Source: Methylobacter sp. (GTDB lineage Bacteria > Pseudomonadota > Gammaproteobacteria > Methylococcales > Methylomonadaceae). From it: a stretch of DNA of 41,882 nt. Positions 14,584 to 22,574 of this stretch are shown in pieces. Location of the stretch: NCBI GenBank assembly GCA_030653175.1, contig JAURZV010000071.1:1-41882 (forward strand), read 5' to 3'. The notes beneath the pieces were generated by a model, which saw nothing but the letters and a program-made list of their open reading frames with translations, did no database searches and was not told the DNA's origin. A program made the position numbers and the translations under genes. Within the stretch, counting starts at the first letter, position 1; each line of letters opens with the position of its first letter.

Positions 14584-15099
14584 ATGCCTAAATCCAAACA
14601 CGATCTACTCAACAGCCTGTTCCATCACCACAACAAAGAGCTGTTGGCCTTCGCCGGTTGGCGGGTGGGCGACTTCGCGGCCGAAGATCTGGTGCAGGAA
14701 ACCTATCTGCGCTTGCTACAGCATCCCGAACCCGCATCTATCAGTAATCCACGCGCTTATCTTTACCAGGTGATGGCCAATCTCGGCTTCGATCATCATC
14801 GCAAGGAGAACGTTCGCAGCAAGTACACCAAAACCGATGAAGTCGAACCGGATGACCTGATTTCGCCGCTGCCGGGACCGGAGGCGCTAATGGAAGGAGA
14901 GCTCCTGCTTAGGAACTGCCTGGCGGCGCTGAAAACATTGCCCGAAGTATACCGTCATGTTTTTTTCCTGAACCGGATTGACGGCTTGACCCACCTCGAA
15001 ATCGCCGATGCCTTGCAGCTTCCCCGGCGAACCGTGGAACGCTATTGCGCCAAGGCGCTTGCCCTCTGTTTTACCCATACTATGCGTAATCAGGGCTAA
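14584..15099 (+). CDS. FecI-type ECF sigma factor
   Basis: This 171-residue ECF sigma factor has region 2 at residues about 10-75 (LAFAGWRVGDFAAEDLVQET, then YLRLLQHPEPASISNPRAYL) and region 4 at about 110-160 (LPEVYRHVFFLNRIDGLTHL, then EIADALQLPRRTVERYCAKA). FecI-type factors are released by a signal from an STN-bearing TonB receptor through a FecR anti-sigma and then transcribe the receptor gene. The next genes are exactly a FecR and such a receptor. Length and motifs are complete, and the ATG at 14584 is consistent with the family. Confidence 0.93.
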   Translation: MPKSKHDLLNSLFHHHNKELLAFAGWRVGDFAAEDLVQETYLRLLQHPEPASISNPRAYLYQVMANLGFDHHRKENVRSKYTKTDEVEPDDLISPLPGPEALMEGELLLRNCLAALKTLPEVYRHVFFLNRIDGLTHLEIADALQLPRRTVERYCAKALALCFTHTMRNQG

Positions 15100-15161
15100 A
15101 TCGGCGCACACCGGCAGCCGCTATTGTTTTATACTGCGCCATTCACGACACCCCTTATTCT

Positions 15162-16142
15162 ATGACTGATACTCACAACACACCATCAGGCTCCCTCCAT
15201 GAACTAGCCGTTTTTTGGGTAACGCGGCTCCATTCCGGCGATTGTACCGACGAAGAACGGCATGATTTCGAAGCTTGGCTGGCGCAAAGCGAGGCTCATC
15301 GCATCGCTCACCAGGAAGTTGCAGCGTTTTGGGAAGGATTAAGTCAAATTGAGCCACTTGCCGCTCCCCAGCTTGCGGCCGCACGCGCCTATCTGCGCAA
15401 GACCCGGCAGTCTCGGCGCACATTGACTAAAAAACGTCTGGCGGGAGTCTTGTCTCTTATCCTTATAACGGGTTTCAGTCCGCTTTGGTGGTCATGGCTT
15501 AGCACCGACATTTACCGCACCGCCAAAAGCGAGTCCACCAGTATCCAGCTTAGCGACGGCTCGCGCATCGACCTCAATACCGATACCGAACTGAGCGTAC
15601 AGTACACATGGACAACGCGCAGCGTGAAACTGGAACGCGGCGAGGCTCTGTTTTCAATCGTTCACAACCCGGAACAGCCTTTTGAAGTCATCGCCGCAGG
15701 CGGCCGCATTCAGGACATAGGCACTCGCTTCAATATTTATCGGCAAGCCGATCGCGTATCGGTAACGGTGCTGGAGGGCGAGGTCAGCGTTGCAGCAAGC
15801 CAAAGTTCCACAGTGCAAAACCTGATTCCCGGCCAACAGATCAGTTACGACTCGACCGGGCAAACATCCTTGGTTTCACCTGTTGATATTGATGCCGTCA
15901 CCGCCTGGCAAAAAGGACAACTGGTATTCAAAGGCCGGCCCTTGAGCATAGTGCTGGAGCAGCTGGGTCGCTATCACGATACCTTGCTGCAAGTGCCCGA
16001 TTCACGCTTGCAGTCGCTTAAGGTCAGCGGAGTATTTCCCACCAACAATCTAAGCCTTGCACTCAATACCATTGCCGGCGCCTTGCCGATCAAAGTAACC
16101 CAAACCGCAACAAATACCTTCGTCATAGCCCCGGCTGATTAG
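15162..16142 (+). CDS. FecR-type anti-sigma factor/signal transducer
   Basis: This 326-residue inner-membrane protein has a cytoplasmic N-terminal DUF4880 domain (AVFWVTRLHSGDCTDEERHD, then WLAQSEAHRIAHQEVAAFW) and one transmembrane helix near residue 95 (GVLSLILITGFSPLWWSWL). The periplasmic FecR domain has IQLSDGSRIDLNTDTELSV, VKLERGEALFSIVHN and VSVTVLEGEVSVA. A C-terminal secretin/STN-like domain carries VFKGRPLSIVLEQLGRY. It receives the signal from the receptor's STN domain and controls the sigma factor. It starts 62 bp after the sigma gene stop on the same strand. The receptor gene follows after 325 bp that contain a repeat. Confidence 0.93.
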   Translation: MTDTHNTPSGSLHELAVFWVTRLHSGDCTDEERHDFEAWLAQSEAHRIAHQEVAAFWEGLSQIEPLAAPQLAAARAYLRKTRQSRRTLTKKRLAGVLSLILITGFSPLWWSWLSTDIYRTAKSESTSIQLSDGSRIDLNTDTELSVQYTWTTRSVKLERGEALFSIVHNPEQPFEVIAAGGRIQDIGTRFNIYRQADRVSVTVLEGEVSVAASQSSTVQNLIPGQQISYDSTGQTSLVSPVDIDAVTAWQKGQLVFKGRPLSIVLEQLGRYHDTLLQVPDSRLQSLKVSGVFPTNNLSLALNTIAGALPIKVTQTATNTFVIAPAD

Positions 16143-16467
16143 CCATCGACTGGCTCCAAATCTCCAACTTGGAAACCCGCGCAAAAAATTACTGATAGCT
16201 GGAGTGCAGGCTTTGCCTGCAAGCGCAAGCAAAGCTTGCACTCCCATTGCAATAAATCGTCTTCAATACGTAATGATGGACATAGGCTTGCGCCAGGGAA
16301 ATACGACCAGGCCATCCTTGCCGGAATCCCGCAGACACTTATGTATAACGATCAGAGCTCCAGCTTGGGAGTCGGCATAAATATTTTTCAAAAAAAGTGG
16401 CGGTCTAAATCCTCCAAATCAGTCTTATAAGTTAGTGTCACAACAAAACAAACTTAAAGGAGAACTG
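16143..16467. other. Gap between FecR and receptor genes
   Basis: It contains the 47-bp repeat at 16199-16245 and then about 200 bp without a recognised gene. A promoter for the receptor, perhaps read by the adjacent sigma factor, should lie between 16250 and 16455. No clear FecI-type promoter was identified by eye. The receptor start is fixed by the AAAGGAGA ribosome-binding site at about 16456. Confidence 0.5.
16199..16245 (+). repeat. 47-bp hairpin repeat (ctggagtgcaggctttgcct family), copy 1
   Basis: It starts ctggagtgcaggctttgcct and ends agcaaagcttgcactccc; the ends are inverted copies and fold into a hairpin. A near-identical copy is at 23318-23364, both preceded by atag. A third, interrupted, inverted copy is at 27144-27283. 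Confidence 0.85.
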
Positions 16468-18969
16468 ATGCGCACACTACCCAAACTGATAGCAACCCTG
16501 CCGATGGCGATGGTCATGGGAGCTGCCGTAGCCGAAGAAAGCACTTTCAACCTCAACATCCCTGCGCAACCGCTAGCCGCAGCGATAGAGGCTATGAGCA
16601 AACAAACAGGATTGCAACCCTTTTACGCGGACGGCGCTTTAATCGGCAAACAAAGCCCCGCGCTGAAAGGAAACTACAGTAAACGCGAGGCAGTGGAAAA
16701 ACTGCTGGCGCAAAGCGGGCTGGACTATACGTTCACCGGGGACAACACTGTGGCGGTTAAGGCGGCTGAAGCTCCTGTCGCCGTCGCCGAATCCGATCAA
16801 AAAGAAAAAAGTACAAAAAAAACAGAGGAGCCGCTGGTTTTGGATACGCTAACCATCAAAGCCCAAAAATCCAATATCGATCAGCCGTTCGGCACCTATC
16901 TCGACCATTCCAAAATAGCCCTCGCCAGAACCGCTACCAGCGATACCGCCCAAATGCTTAAAGATACGCCCGGCATAAGCTTCTCCGGCGGCGGCGGCAT
17001 TTCCAGCCGACCCGTTATCCACGGCATGGCGGACGACCGTTTGCGGGTTCAAGTCGATGGCATGAACCTGATTTCGGCTTGCGCCAATCACATGAATCCT
17101 GCGCTCTCTTACGTTGCCCCCTCCAGCGTACTGAGCGCCCAGGTGCTTGCCGGAATCACGCCGGTCAGCATGGGCGGCGACAGTATCGGCGGCACCATTC
17201 GCGTTCACTCGGCCGATCCCGAATTTGCCGAGGATGGCAAGGCTCCGTTGATAAAAGGTCAGGCCTCGACCTTTTATCGCACCAACGGCGATGCCCGAGG
17301 CGGCAATATTTCCGCTTCGATAGCGAATGAGCATGCCGAGCTTAAGTACACGGGTTCAACGGTACAGTCCCGCAATTACAAAGCGGGTGGAAATTTCACT
17401 ACCCGAAATACAAAAAACGGCAATGATGTGGTGAGTTCTTCAGCCTATAAATCGGAGAACCAATCGCTGTCGCTGGCCTTGCGTAACGACGACCATCTTG
17501 CCGTCATCAAGGTCGGGCAGCAAAACATCCCTTATCAAGCCTTCCCCAACGTGCGCATGGACATGACCGGCGATGACAGTTGGTTTGCCAATGTCTTCAC
17601 CAAGAGCAAGTTTCAGTGGGGAAATATTGAAACTCGCGCTTATCACGAAGATGCTCAACATAAAATGAACTTCCTGGCGGATAAAATGACTACGCCAACC
17701 CGTACCATGCCGATGGATACGAATGGCGTTAACCAGGGCCTGTCGGTAAAAGCCAATATCGATATGACCGACAAGCACTTGCTTACTGTGGGCAGTGAGT
17801 ATCAGCGTTATCGTTTAGACGACTGGTGGGATCCGATCGGCCCCAACCCCATGATAATGATGCAAGGACCGGGGGCATTCCAGAATATCAATCAAGGAAA
17901 ACGCGATCGCATCGATCTTTTTACTGAATGGGAAGGCCGCTGGAATCAGCAATGGCTTACTCAGCTCGGCGCCCGTGTCGGTGTCGTGGAAATGAATGCC
18001 GGCAATGTGATGGATTATGGCGTAATCACACCGGAAGCGCGGATTGTTAACAGTCAAAATAAAAAACAAACCGACGTGAATATTGACTGGACGGCATTGG
18101 CGCGCTACACCCCGAATGATATGCAGACTTACGAATTAGGGGCTGCCAGAAAGACCCGTTCGCCCAACCTTTACGAGCGCTTTGCCTGGTCTCGCGGACG
18201 TGTTATGGGTGTGAGCACCATGCCTATGGCGATGTTGATGAATAACTGGGTCGGCGATGGCAACGGCTATGTAGGCGATATTAATCTTAAGCCGGAAGTC
18301 GCCCACACGGTCAGTGCTACAGCCAATTGGCATGATGCCGATCAGGAAGACTGGGAGGCTAAAATCACTCCCTTTTACACTCATGTTGAAAACTATATTG
18401 ATGCCGAATTCTGTCGGCCGGCCAACGGTGTGACATGTGCCAACTCAGCACCAGGCAAAACAACAACGCATGGCGGCGGCGGTTTTAGGCTGCTGCAACT
18501 GGCTAATTTCGATGCGCATCTGTTCGGCGTCGATGTTTCCGGATCTAAACGGTTATTGGAAAACGTCAAATACGGCAGCTTCACCGGTAAAGTCGGTATG
18601 AATTATGTAAGAGGACAGAACAACGACACCGGCGACAACCTGTACCAACAGATGCCATTTAATACGACGGTAGCGCTTGAGCATCAACGCGGAGGCTGGA
18701 CCAACACTATCGAAACGCAAATAGTGGCGCCTAAAACAGACGTGCAAGCCATCCGTTTAGAGCCTAGAACCGCAGGTTATGCACTGCTCAACCTGCGCAG
18801 CAGTTATACCTGGAAACATTTGCGAATCGATGGCGGCATAGATAACCTTCTCGACAAGAATTACGCCCTGCCTCTCGGCGGTACTTATATAGGGGAAACG
18901 AACATCCAGGGAATTGCTGTTCCCGGCATGGGACGCTCATTCAATGTCGGGATGACTGTAAATTATTAG
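16468..18969 (+). CDS. TonB-dependent outer-membrane copper receptor with STN domain (OprC-like)
   Basis: This 833-residue TonB-dependent receptor has a signal peptide (TLPMAMVMGAAVAEE), then a periplasmic STN domain (residues about 28-95, FNLNIPAQPLAAAIEAMSKQ). A plug follows with DTPGISFSGGGGISSRPVIH, and the protein ends in the beta barrel with a final GRSFNVGMTVNY. The plug contains CANHM (Cys205, Met209) and the barrel contains HKM (His398, Met400). This matches the CxxxM plus HxM copper site of Pseudomonas OprC, with similar spacing (193 versus about 180 residues). Barrel loops are Met-rich (NPMIMMQGPG, GVSTMPMAMLMNNW). It probably imports copper. The STN domain implies signalling through the upstream FecR and sigma factor. 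The ATG at 16468 follows AAAGGAGA. Confidence 0.92.
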   Translation: MRTLPKLIATLPMAMVMGAAVAEESTFNLNIPAQPLAAAIEAMSKQTGLQPFYADGALIGKQSPALKGNYSKREAVEKLLAQSGLDYTFTGDNTVAVKAAEAPVAVAESDQKEKSTKKTEEPLVLDTLTIKAQKSNIDQPFGTYLDHSKIALARTATSDTAQMLKDTPGISFSGGGGISSRPVIHGMADDRLRVQVDGMNLISACANHMNPALSYVAPSSVLSAQVLAGITPVSMGGDSIGGTIRVHSADPEFAEDGKAPLIKGQASTFYRTNGDARGGNISASIANEHAELKYTGSTVQSRNYKAGGNFTTRNTKNGNDVVSSSAYKSENQSLSLALRNDDHLAVIKVGQQNIPYQAFPNVRMDMTGDDSWFANVFTKSKFQWGNIETRAYHEDAQHKMNFLADKMTTPTRTMPMDTNGVNQGLSVKANIDMTDKHLLTVGSEYQRYRLDDWWDPIGPNPMIMMQGPGAFQNINQGKRDRIDLFTEWEGRWNQQWLTQLGARVGVVEMNAGNVMDYGVITPEARIVNSQNKKQTDVNIDWTALARYTPNDMQTYELGAARKTRSPNLYERFAWSRGRVMGVSTMPMAMLMNNWVGDGNGYVGDINLKPEVAHTVSATANWHDADQEDWEAKITPFYTHVENYIDAEFCRPANGVTCANSAPGKTTTHGGGGFRLLQLANFDAHLFGVDVSGSKRLLENVKYGSFTGKVGMNYVRGQNNDTGDNLYQQMPFNTTVALEHQRGGWTNTIETQIVAPKTDVQAIRLEPRTAGYALLNLRSSYTWKHLRIDGGIDNLLDKNYALPLGGTYIGETNIQGIAVPGMGRSFNVGMTVNY

Positions 18970-19007: not shown

Positions 19008-19207
19008 TCACCGCGAAGGCACTAAGAAAAAACATAAAACTTCGTACTCTTCGTATCTCGGCAATAGCTCCTGCATTGCTGTCGATCGCTGTTCCAGACG
19101 CGATTCTACCACCTGCATTCCCCACATCCATGTGGGGAATGCAGGTATTGCATAACGCCATGGATGGCGTGTAGTAGAGTAATGCAGGAGCAATTACCGA
19201 GGAGCAA
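19008..19207. repeat. Nested inverted-repeat mosaic
   Basis: The core is a perfect 17-bp stem (19111-19127 with 19130-19146, arm acctgcattccccacat, 2-base loop). Outside it, ctcggcaatagctcctgcat near 19055 pairs with an inverted atgcaggagcaattaccgag near 19180. The left end, tcaccgcgaaggcac, resembles the ends of the cacgaa-family elements at 2791 and 32035. It also carries a diverged module B copy (about 19160-19207). Confidence 0.7.
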
Positions 19208-19293: not shown

Positions 19294-19396
19294 TATAGGT
19301 AACCAAGCTGATTAAACAACATTCCGGCCCTCTTTCCTCTCGAAGAGAATTTGATTGAAAAGAGCAAATGAATCTTTATAACCTCGGTTACCTATA
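19294..19396. promoter_or_regulatory. Long-spaced inverted repeat upstream of the kinase
   Basis: The arm tataggtaacc (19294-19304) is exactly inverted as ggttacctata (19386-19396), 81 bp apart, about 95 bp before the kinase start. It could be ends of a small degraded element or paired regulator sites. No known motif was matched. Confidence 0.45.
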
Positions 19397-19490: not shown

Positions 19491-22400
19491 ATGTCCGAAC
19501 ACGACAAATGGGAGCGGTTGTTTGACCTTTTTGGTATTAAAGACTTCATTCCTCATGGCTATTGCCTATCGTGGAGTCCTTTATTACTTTGGCTACATGT
19601 CATCTCAGATCTACTGATCACTCTAGCCTATTATTCCATTCCCCTGATGCTCGTCTATTTTATCCGGCGGCGTAAGGATTTTCCCTATTCGTGGCTGGCG
19701 ATCATATTTGCCGGATTTATTGTCGCCTGCGGCACCACGCATTTGCTGTCGGCTGTCACGATCTGGATACCTTTATATTGGCTGGACGGCGTGCTTAAAG
19801 CCTTTACGGCAATTATTTCGATCGCCACCGCCGTGCTGATGCTAAGAGTTATTCCCAGCGCCTTGTCTGCACCCAGCGCCACACAACTGCAAGCGGAGAT
19901 AGAACAAAGAAAAACCGCCGAGAAAGCACTACTTGTCGCTAATGTTACGCTACAAAAAAATATCGCTCGCACCCAGCTATTGCTGGATTCAGCGTTAGAC
20001 GGAATCGTCAATATGGATCATAACGGTAAAGTAATAGGCTGGAATGTCCAAGCCGAACATATTTTCGGTTACTCAAGCGAACAAGCATTAGGACGCAAGA
20101 TAGCAGAATTAATCATTCCGCCGGCTTATCGGGAAAGGCATCGGCAAGGCCTATCACGATTTATGGAGACAGATACATCGAATTTTATCGGTAAGCGTTT
20201 GGAGCTTACCGGTTTGCGCGCCGACGCTTCGGAATTTCCGATGGAACTGACTATCGGCGCGCTGAAACAAAACGGCAACTATTTTTTCAGTGCCTATATT
20301 CGTGATATTAGCGAGCGCAGAATAGCCGAAGATGCGTTGCGTGAAAGCGAATATCGCTGGAAATTTGCCATTGAGGGTTCCGGCGACGGCGTATGGGACA
20401 GGGACATTCAGACCGACGAAGTCAAGTATTCCAGCCGCTGGAAAGAAATGTTAGGGTATGCCGAAGACGACATCCTGCCTACTCGCCAAGATTGGCTGAA
20501 GCGAATTCATCCCGATGACCAGTCATATGTTGCAGGAGTGGTACAAGCATACCTGGAAGGAAATCAGGCAACTTACGTCGTTGAACATCGCTTGCGCTGC
20601 AAGGATGGAAGCTACAAATGGATTCTGGCTAGAGGCTCGGTGGTCAGCCGGAGCGAAGACGGCAAGCCCTTGCGCATGATCGGCACGCATACCGATATTT
20701 CGGAGCGCAAACAGGCGGAACAGGCTCTACGACAAAGCCGGAAAGAACTGCAAGAAGCTCAGCGAATCGCCCATATGGGCAGCTGGCAGCTGGACATTGC
20801 GACTCATCATGTCGCTTGGTCGGAAGAACTTTACCGCATATTGGGTTTGAACCCCGAATTGCCGGCGCCTGATTACACTGAGTACCGCCGGTTGTTCACT
20901 CCTGAGAGCTGGGAACGATTGAGTACCGCTCTGCCCCACACACAGGAAACAGGGGCTCCTTATGAGCTGGAACTTGAAATGGTCAGAGCTGACGGGGCAC
21001 ACGGCTGGATGTTGGCACGGGGGGAAGCCATACAGGACAGCAGTGGCGCCATTGTCGGACTCCATGGCGTGGCGCTGGACATCACTGAGCGCAAAGTAAT
21101 GGAAGATGAGCTGAAAACCAGTGAAACAAAATTCCGCTCGATTATTGAAGTTTCCCCGGTACCGATGGCGTTGCACGATGAGCAGTTAAATATTACCTTC
21201 CTTAATCCGGCGTTTGTGCAAACCTTTGGTTACAGCATAGATGATATCCCCACTCTGGCAGACTGGTGGACGAAAGCCTACCCTGACCCGGACTTTCGGG
21301 ATTGGGTCGCGATAACCTGGCAAACGACACTGGAAAAAGCCAAACAGGAACAGACCGAATGCCCACCTATGGAAGTGGACATTCACTGCAAGAACAACAG
21401 CATTAAAACCGTGTTGGTGACTGCCGCTGCGATTCATCACGATTTTACGGGTATGCATTTGGTGATGCTGTACGACATTACCCAGCGCAAACAAATTGAA
21501 GCCCGCCTCAACTCCATTTTTAATGCCTCGGTGGAGGGCATTATCACCACTGATACGGCCGACATCATCGTGTCCGCGAATGCCGCAGTAGAAACTATGT
21601 TCGGCTATAAACCGGAACAGCTGGTTGGTTGCAGTATTAACAAACTCATACAATCATCGCCAAAAGACATAAATGATTATAATTTTCCCCATGCGGTAAA
21701 AGGTCAAATTCAGGAGGTTGAAGGTATTCACAACAACGGTTCTGTGGTGCCTTTGGATCTGTCCGTAGCGAAGTTTTCAATCGATAATGCGCACTATTTT
21801 ACCCATATTGTGCGTGATGTGAGTTTGCGCAAATATCGGGAACAGCAAGACAAGGAACATCTGGACGAGCTCGCCCATGTCACTCGCCTTGGGCTGATGG
21901 GTGAGATGGCTTCCGGCATTGCCCATGAAGTCAACCAGCCTCTGGCTGCGATTTCCAGCTATACGCAAGTCAGCATAAACCTTATTCACACTGAAAATCC
22001 CGACCTGTTCAAGCTGACCGAGATCTTATACAAAACGCAGCAACAGGCTTTACGAGCGGGACGGATAATTCATCGCATGAGGGAATTTGTCAAATCCCAT
22101 TCAATACATCGTTCAAGCGCCGATCTTAATACGTTGATTCATGACGCTATCGGTCTGTGTATTGCCGAACTTAAACAAAACGACATAAGACTGACATTTG
22201 AACTGGAAAACAATCTGCCGCCTCTCTATGTTGATCACATACAAATTGAACAGGTCATCATAAACCTGATCCGAAACAGCGTTGAAGCCTTGCAAAATTT
22301 ACCCCCGGAACGGCAACGCCACTTAACCATCCATAGCCACTTGATTCCCAATAATGTCATACGGGTCAGGGTGAAGGATAATGGGCCGGGTCTTGATGAA

Positions 22401-22574
22401 GACCAACAACAGAAAATATTGACGCCTTTTTACACCACAAAGGCAGACGGCATGGGACTATCCATCAGTCGTTCACTAATCGAAGCTCACGAAGGCACGT
22501 TACATTTCAATAGCAAACCAGGAAAAGGCACCACTTTTTATTTCACCCTGCCAATGCAGAAAAAATCTGAATGA
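19491..22574 (+). CDS. Ethylene-binding-domain PAS sensor histidine kinase
   Basis: The 1027-residue kinase begins with a three-helix membrane domain (residues about 30-125) like plant ETR1 and cyanobacterial SynEtr1. All seven residues essential for ETR1 ethylene binding are present at a constant offset of 15: Asp40, Tyr47, Ile50, Pro51, Ile77, Cys80 and His84. In ETR1 the Cys and His hold the copper ion. Five PAS domains follow (about 158-275, 286-405, 420-530, 543-660 and 668-785). Then come HisKA with GIAHEVNQPLAAISSYTQ (phospho-acceptor His812) and an ATPase domain with INLIRNSVEAL, DNGPGL and GKGTTFYFTLP. No response regulator is adjacent, so it is an orphan. The signal may be ethylene, another small ligand or copper status; that is inferred from family knowledge. 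Confidence 0.95.
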   Translation: MSEHDKWERLFDLFGIKDFIPHGYCLSWSPLLLWLHVISDLLITLAYYSIPLMLVYFIRRRKDFPYSWLAIIFAGFIVACGTTHLLSAVTIWIPLYWLDGVLKAFTAIISIATAVLMLRVIPSALSAPSATQLQAEIEQRKTAEKALLVANVTLQKNIARTQLLLDSALDGIVNMDHNGKVIGWNVQAEHIFGYSSEQALGRKIAELIIPPAYRERHRQGLSRFMETDTSNFIGKRLELTGLRADASEFPMELTIGALKQNGNYFFSAYIRDISERRIAEDALRESEYRWKFAIEGSGDGVWDRDIQTDEVKYSSRWKEMLGYAEDDILPTRQDWLKRIHPDDQSYVAGVVQAYLEGNQATYVVEHRLRCKDGSYKWILARGSVVSRSEDGKPLRMIGTHTDISERKQAEQALRQSRKELQEAQRIAHMGSWQLDIATHHVAWSEELYRILGLNPELPAPDYTEYRRLFTPESWERLSTALPHTQETGAPYELELEMVRADGAHGWMLARGEAIQDSSGAIVGLHGVALDITERKVMEDELKTSETKFRSIIEVSPVPMALHDEQLNITFLNPAFVQTFGYSIDDIPTLADWWTKAYPDPDFRDWVAITWQTTLEKAKQEQTECPPMEVDIHCKNNSIKTVLVTAAAIHHDFTGMHLVMLYDITQRKQIEARLNSIFNASVEGIITTDTADIIVSANAAVETMFGYKPEQLVGCSINKLIQSSPKDINDYNFPHAVKGQIQEVEGIHNNGSVVPLDLSVAKFSIDNAHYFTHIVRDVSLRKYREQQDKEHLDELAHVTRLGLMGEMASGIAHEVNQPLAAISSYTQVSINLIHTENPDLFKLTEILYKTQQQALRAGRIIHRMREFVKSHSIHRSSADLNTLIHDAIGLCIAELKQNDIRLTFELENNLPPLYVDHIQIEQVIINLIRNSVEALQNLPPERQRHLTIHSHLIPNNVIRVRVKDNGPGLDEDQQQKILTPFYTTKADGMGLSISRSLIEAHEGTLHFNSKPGKGTTFYFTLPMQKKSE

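Follow-up and report, generated by a model that had tools for sequence, protein, structure and literature searches.

The gene at 19491..22574 on the forward strand of the window, meaning the whole stretch of 41,882 nucleotides of Methylobacter DNA analysed here, encodes a sensor histidine kinase whose N-terminal domain is supported by sequence comparison as a member of the ethylene-receptor N-terminal family. With a rough probability of two thirds, the kinase is a bacterial, Cu(I)-dependent ethylene receptor of the ETR1/AzoEtr1 type, here in a methanotroph. This reading is favoured because of homology to AzoEtr1 of Azospirillum brasilense and to ETR1 of Arabidopsis. Since domains of this kind have already been reviewed and AzoEtr1 is a proven ethylene binder, the window protein adds a member to a known kind.

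The N-terminal domain and its conserved residues

The kinase has 1027 aa and an ATG start. Its residues 1-125 are encoded by 19491-19865, and a Pfam scan places PF25487 (ETR1_N) at residues 32-126 with an E-value of 8.6e-38 and 129 bits, against a curated cut-off of 27. The same model gives no match in 14 control genomes. The domain is followed by five PAS stretches (TIGR00229), by HisKA at residues 803-869 (21897..22097, forward strand), and by HATPase_c at residues 915-1023 (22233..22559, forward strand), the last two found by Pfam scan. The phospho-acceptor His812 lies within the HisKA stretch GIAHEVNQPL, and the N, G1 and G2 boxes are present in HATPase_c. The Pfam scan of the 1027-aa kinase gave no match to a receiver domain. 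The original prediction of an ethylene-receptor-type domain attached to a kinase with five PAS domains and HisKA is therefore borne out, both by the score of the ETR1_N match and by the binding residues that the domain has kept.

These residues are D40, Y47, I50, P51, I77, C80 and H84, which align with ETR1 D25, Y32, I35, P36, I62, C65 and H69. The constant offset of 15 that had been claimed for all seven agrees with the alignment to the AtETR1 N-terminus. K103 of the kinase aligns with K91, the output lysine of ETR1. Of the ETR1 residues, Y32, I35, P36 and I62 are taken here to be binding residues. D25, C65, H69 and K91 are named in PMC11819568, which also mentions seven binding residues.

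The alignment comprises 109 rows, namely the window domain, AtETR1 and 107 relatives selected because they resemble the window or other members of the family. All seven residues are kept in 92 rows, and nine of the 17 deviating rows differ at Ile50, where they have Met or Leu. His84 is present in every row and Cys80 in 108. Because the rows had been chosen by similarity, they were thinned for the ranking of columns to 38, dropping those that had over 15 gaps among the columns compared or were at least 70% identical to a row already kept. For trees and column rankings alike, columns gapped in the window were removed from every row. Among the 38 rows, which are less than 70% identical to one another, the seven residues take conservation ranks 4, 6, 9, 10, 19, 20 and 26 of 113 columns. 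Several non-ligand columns, for example P122, S110, T106 and F76, are equally conserved in these rows, so rank alone is no proof of a ligand role.

Such columns, like the exchanges at Ile50, would also be expected if the domain were only a membrane anchor and dimeriser, with its residues kept for packing and the signal coming from the PAS domains. Packing hardly explains, however, a histidine found in all rows and a cysteine missing from a single one, even in rows picked by similarity to the window, and a role as mere anchor is very improbable. The domain is under purifying selection, with a dN/dS of 0.15-0.33 in eight comparisons of the window with close relatives over 105 codons.

A second conserved element lies just before helix 1. 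It is a bacterial N-terminal motif, P-H-G-Y-C-L-S-W, at residues 21-28 (19551..19574, forward strand). This PHGxCxxW motif is conserved like the ethylene-binding residues, yet it stands outside, and ahead of, the ETR1_N match. Of the 109 rows, 105 have His22, and Cys25 and Trp28 are each found in 107; in the 38 non-redundant rows His22, Cys25 and Trp28 rank 21, 7 and 12 of 113 columns. It may be guessed that His22 and Cys25 are extra copper or redox residues, which would serve copper loading or form a disulphide.

The domain was modelled with AlphaFold from 66 aligned domains (the window domain and 65 of 79 rows). The model has a mean pLDDT of 85.7 and a pTM of 0.69, and the pLDDT per ten-residue block is 86-97 over residues 31-130. 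The predicted helix 1, residues 30-60 (19578..19670, forward strand), holds Asp40, Tyr47, Ile50 and Pro51. The predicted helix 2, residues 67-90 (19689..19760, forward strand), holds Ile77 and the putative copper-ligand pair Cys80/His84 within CGTTH, and the predicted helix 3, residues 96-126 (19776..19868, forward strand), carries Lys103, the equivalent of ETR1 Lys91. Hydropathy peaks agree with these modelled helices and indicate that all three are transmembrane. Residues 11-30 are poorly modelled, with block means of 55 and 61, and the pLDDT is below 50 at residues 19-21 in the PHGxC region. A phmmer search of the PDB gave no credible homologue of the domain (best E 0.067), and Foldseek against the PDB gave no match at E ≤0.001 (best E 0.45).

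Relationship to known receptors

In the midpoint-rooted tree, built from 109 rows over 114 columns, the window domain falls within a clade of 60 rows (99/99), 54 of which are from Methylococcales, one from Nitrosomonadales and five unlabelled, including three from the host's own genome. The window's side of the tree has 79 rows and contains AzoEtr1, some rows from beta- and gammaproteobacteria, and rows that belong to other classes. The opposite side of 30 rows (95/88) contains AtETR1, cyanobacteria and others, among them one further domain of the host genome (C5). With AzoEtr1 on the window's side and AtETR1 on the other, proven binders flank the window clade on both sides. The tree is limited to this claim, because its bootstrap is not settled, its root is the midpoint and AtETR1 sits on a long branch. 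A placement far from ethylene receptors, which the original prediction had named as the outcome that would speak against it, was not found, since AzoEtr1 lies on the same side. The kinase had further been described as an unusually long sensor. This does not hold, as 23 of the 60 clade rows, incomplete proteins included, have at least 1000 aa.

A specialised ligand site in the clade was considered and rejected, the clade-specific columns being only four (29, 62, 87 and 117) and none of them belonging to the seven binding residues. The same four positions, together with the long branch of the 60-row clade (0.51), speak for the possibility that the copper site has been kept but receives another small pi-ligand or gas encountered by methanotrophs, such as CO, acetylene or propylene, with PAS1 perhaps adding an oxygen signal. 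PAS1 (19950..20360, forward strand) has the FixL haem PAS as its closest relative in the PDB (phmmer E 4e-18), and its His217 aligns with the FixL histidine that we take to be haem-proximal. By this resemblance an oxygen input is possible. The FixL arginine presumed to contact oxygen is, however, shifted by one position in the PAS1 alignment, and with the seven binding residues free of clade-specific change, such another pi-ligand or gas as the natural signal is improbable. The FixL equivalog model reaches 463 bits on the kinase against a cut-off of 850, with its best stretch on the C-terminal part.

AzoEtr1 was taken from plasmid ABSP7_p1 of A. brasilense Sp7 as a 525-aa ORF starting MFGGVEAF. 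The ORF has D35, C75, H79 and K98, and it agrees with the length, primer and residue numbers given in PMC11819568. According to the same source, residues 1-130 of AzoEtr1 show saturable 14C-ethylene binding. As this work was published in 2025, the earlier statement that such receptors are little studied outside cyanobacteria is partly out of date. Like the window kinase, AzoEtr1 joins an ETR1_N domain that has all seven residues and the lysine to PAS, HisKA and HATPase_c, and the two ETR1_N domains are about 48% identical. AzoEtr1 has one PAS region within its 525 aa, whereas the window kinase has five within 1027 aa. In addition, a response regulator gene overlaps the stop codon of AzoEtr1 (PMC11819568), whereas the Pfam scan of the seven ORFs flanking the window kinase found no response regulator and no evident ethylene or epoxide enzyme.

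Arabidopsis ETR1 shares the seven residues and the helix-3 lysine with the window domain and is 41% identical to it over the compared columns. It lacks the PHGxCxxW motif except for one aligned Cys. Its N-terminal domain is followed by GAF and not by PAS. The Synechocystis protein SynEtr1 (slr1212) is described as a receptor kinase, likewise bacterial, that has a domain of this type, and its ethylene binding is reported in PMC11819568. It also senses light via a GAF domain, according to the review PMC7700396. The same review reports domains of this type, coupled to various outputs, from many proteobacteria and cyanobacteria. Closer to the host, four proteins of M. tundripaludum SV96 (two at locus L013, one each at L014 and L035) fall into the same domain clade as the window. 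A phage origin of the domain was rejected, with 0 matches in 50,697 phage records. On plasmids the domain occurs in 19 records, all below 60% identity to the window domain.

Distribution and proposed role in methanotrophs

The host genome (4.0 Mb, 109 contigs) has one gene of PF02461, the AMO/pMMO subunit family, and the original prediction had not noticed that the host is a methanotroph. Among named genomes, those of Methylobacter come closest, and M. tundripaludum SV96 stands at 88%. The genome encodes four ETR1_N proteins, namely the window kinase, another kinase (C47), a GGDEF protein (C21) and a GGDEF-EAL protein (C5). In the latter two, ethylene-type sensing appears to be wired to c-di-GMP enzymes.

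The domain is concentrated in methanotroph families. At an E-value of 0.001, ETR1_N is found in 119 of the 201 genomes of the host's own family and in 23 of its 29 genera, and 82 genomes are without a match; PF02461 occurs in 167 of these genomes, covering all 29 genera. A second family of the order has ETR1_N in 21 and PF02461 in 23 of 38 genomes. For a genus that belongs to a different class within the phylum, and whose members we take to be alphaproteobacterial methanotrophs, the counts are 14 and 31 of 39. By comparison, ETR1_N is present in 10 of 274 genomes of a class sample, which includes the host genome and two others of the order, and in 28 of 398 genomes of a phylum sample, which includes the host genome. 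Fisher tests, none of them corrected for shared ancestry or habitat, give p 1e-42 for the own family and p 3e-15 for the second family against the class sample, p 1.8e-6 for the genus of the other class against the phylum sample, and p 9e-18 for the own family at genus level (23/29 vs 14/222). A pMMO-wide link of the domain is nevertheless not universal and was rejected, because G563 and G647, two genomes of the phylum sample that are AMO-positive and belong to other families, have no ETR1_N. The 82 genomes of the own family without a match likewise speak against a strict link. The domain is also present outside methanotrophs, and its role therefore need not be tied to methane.

No published account was found of this setting, in which a Methylobacter-type methanotroph encodes four ETR1_N proteins and 116 of 201 genomes of its family carry the domain over the cut-off. 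Within one open-licence library, no paper joining ethylene receptors and methanotrophs was found; earlier surveys may list methanotrophs in subscription papers or supplements. The words "receptor" and "kinase" are absent from the available main text of PMC11507031, a source on ethylene and methanotrophs.

If the kinase is an ethylene receptor, it could work as follows. The three-helix N-terminal domain would form a dimer in which Cys80 and His84 hold Cu(I), positioned by Asp40. The arrival of ethylene, or of a similar pi-ligand, on the copper would shift helix 3 with its Lys103, and this change would travel through the PAS chain and set the autophosphorylation of His812. From there, the phosphate would pass to a response regulator encoded elsewhere. 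Its purpose may be to warn the cell of ethylene, which methane monooxygenase accepts as a co-substrate and converts to toxic epoxyethane. We infer this purpose, as well as the loading with copper, the identity of the natural ligand as ethylene and the direction in which the kinase responds.

An ethylene alarm is plausible because methane monooxygenase makes a toxic epoxide from ethylene. PMC11507031 reports that methane oxidation is inhibited by ethylene both in soils and in cultures, that a methanotroph is strongly inhibited, and that Methylohalobius crimeensis exposed to ethylene induces an epoxide detoxification cluster; induction of etnE by ethylene in a methanotroph is reported as well. 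A link between the kinase and these genes would be conjectural. A broader suggestion is that the methanotroph guild has multiplied ethylene-receptor domains, on histidine kinases and on c-di-GMP enzymes, so as to sense ethylene, a co-substrate of methane monooxygenase that is hazardous to them, and that in several Methylobacter genomes the gene right after such a kinase encodes a CHASE (cytokinin-receptor-type) kinase, which would bring two plant-hormone-receptor-type sensors side by side in a free-living methane oxidiser. This suggestion is tentative and rather doubtful than probable. If the domains do bind ethylene, candidate receptors are at hand in methanotrophs, and mutants would allow a direct test of how ethylene from plants or soil is linked to the biological methane sink. 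At least one sensor of this type is carried by many relatives of the host, and this would matter because ethylene poisons methane eaters.

Gene neighbourhood and copper as an alternative signal

Upstream of the kinase, and on the same strand, are genes for an ECF sigma factor (14584..15099) and a FecR-type anti-sigma regulator (15162..16142), both recognised by Pfam and NCBIfam, and for an OprC-like TonB-dependent receptor with STN and plug domains (16435..18969), which ends 521 bp before the kinase. The stretch 14584-18969 thus forms a cassette of ECF sigma factor, FecR and STN TonB receptor, a candidate surface-signalling system for copper or haem. In the PDB, the receptor is best matched by OprC (phmmer E 1.8e-19). 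The C-x-x-x-M of the OprC plug is kept as SACANHM, with OprC ACPNRM aligned to ACANHM, and this CxxxM is presumably the copper site of OprC.

The main enzyme of methanotrophs is copper-dependent, and copper is the chief rival of ethylene as the signal. The domain may report the availability of Cu(I) at the membrane, and the kinase would then adjust pMMO or the uptake of copper. The cassette with its kept plug motif agrees with such a role, as do the occurrence of the same cassette beside the kinase at L032 and the additional conserved His/Cys motif PHGxC before helix 1. However, among five other loci that share the downstream Ldt gene, only L032 keeps the cassette, and L013, L015, L017 and L026 do not, so the copper neighbour is suggestive and not conserved. 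On this ground a copper-operon reading of the upstream cassette was rejected, but it is retained as a rival. The receptor also stays below the TonB-copper cut-off of NCBIfam TIGR01778 (103 vs 472 bits). Two haem/transferrin receptor models give it higher scores (133 and 115 bits), though these too are under the respective cut-offs. The host's own paralogues on C21, C47 and C5 are without such a neighbour by eye.

Neighbours of the clade relatives are of little help to the copper reading. Proteins of at least 900 aa were left out, which kept 229, and 68 were hand-picked from 150 of these. Among the 25 commonest of 92 families in the 68 proteins, which include the L032 receptor, there is no copper or AMO family; the 68 contain eight with HATPase_c, eight with a receiver domain and four with CHASE. 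Moreover, the residues in question serve ethylene binding in AzoEtr1 (PMC11819568). Copper as the signal is hence unlikely, and an ethylene receptor kinase remains the favoured reading.

At locus L013 of M. tundripaludum SV96, EthD and Ldt genes adjoin the kinase genes, as they do at the window gene. L013 differs in having two tandem kinases and no match to sigma factor, FecR or TonB receptor in the fetched stretch. The name EthD presumably goes back to ethyl tert-butyl ether degradation, and for this reason no ethylene link is drawn from this neighbour.

A different arrangement is found at five loci of Methylobacter relatives (L014, L018, L019, L039 and L053), where dsbB, an ETR1_N kinase and a CHASE kinase follow one another on one strand. 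The gaps between the kinase and the CHASE gene are 76-199 bp, and dsbB lies no more than 0.9 kb upstream at all five. In the host genome, dsbB stands beside the GGDEF paralogue (L010), where no CHASE gene was seen, and two CHASE proteins are encoded elsewhere. CHASE is present in 19 of the 23 genomes of the genus.

The DNA between the TonB receptor gene and the kinase gene contains repeats. At 19057-19201 there is a nested palindrome, MITE- or REP-like by its look, with a core at 19111-19146 of perfect 17-nt arms around a 2-nt loop and with outer arms of 24 nt (19057-19080 and 19178-19201) at 88% complementarity. A further inverted repeat at 19294-19396, about 100 bp before the kinase start, has 22-nt arms (82%) that are 59 nt apart.
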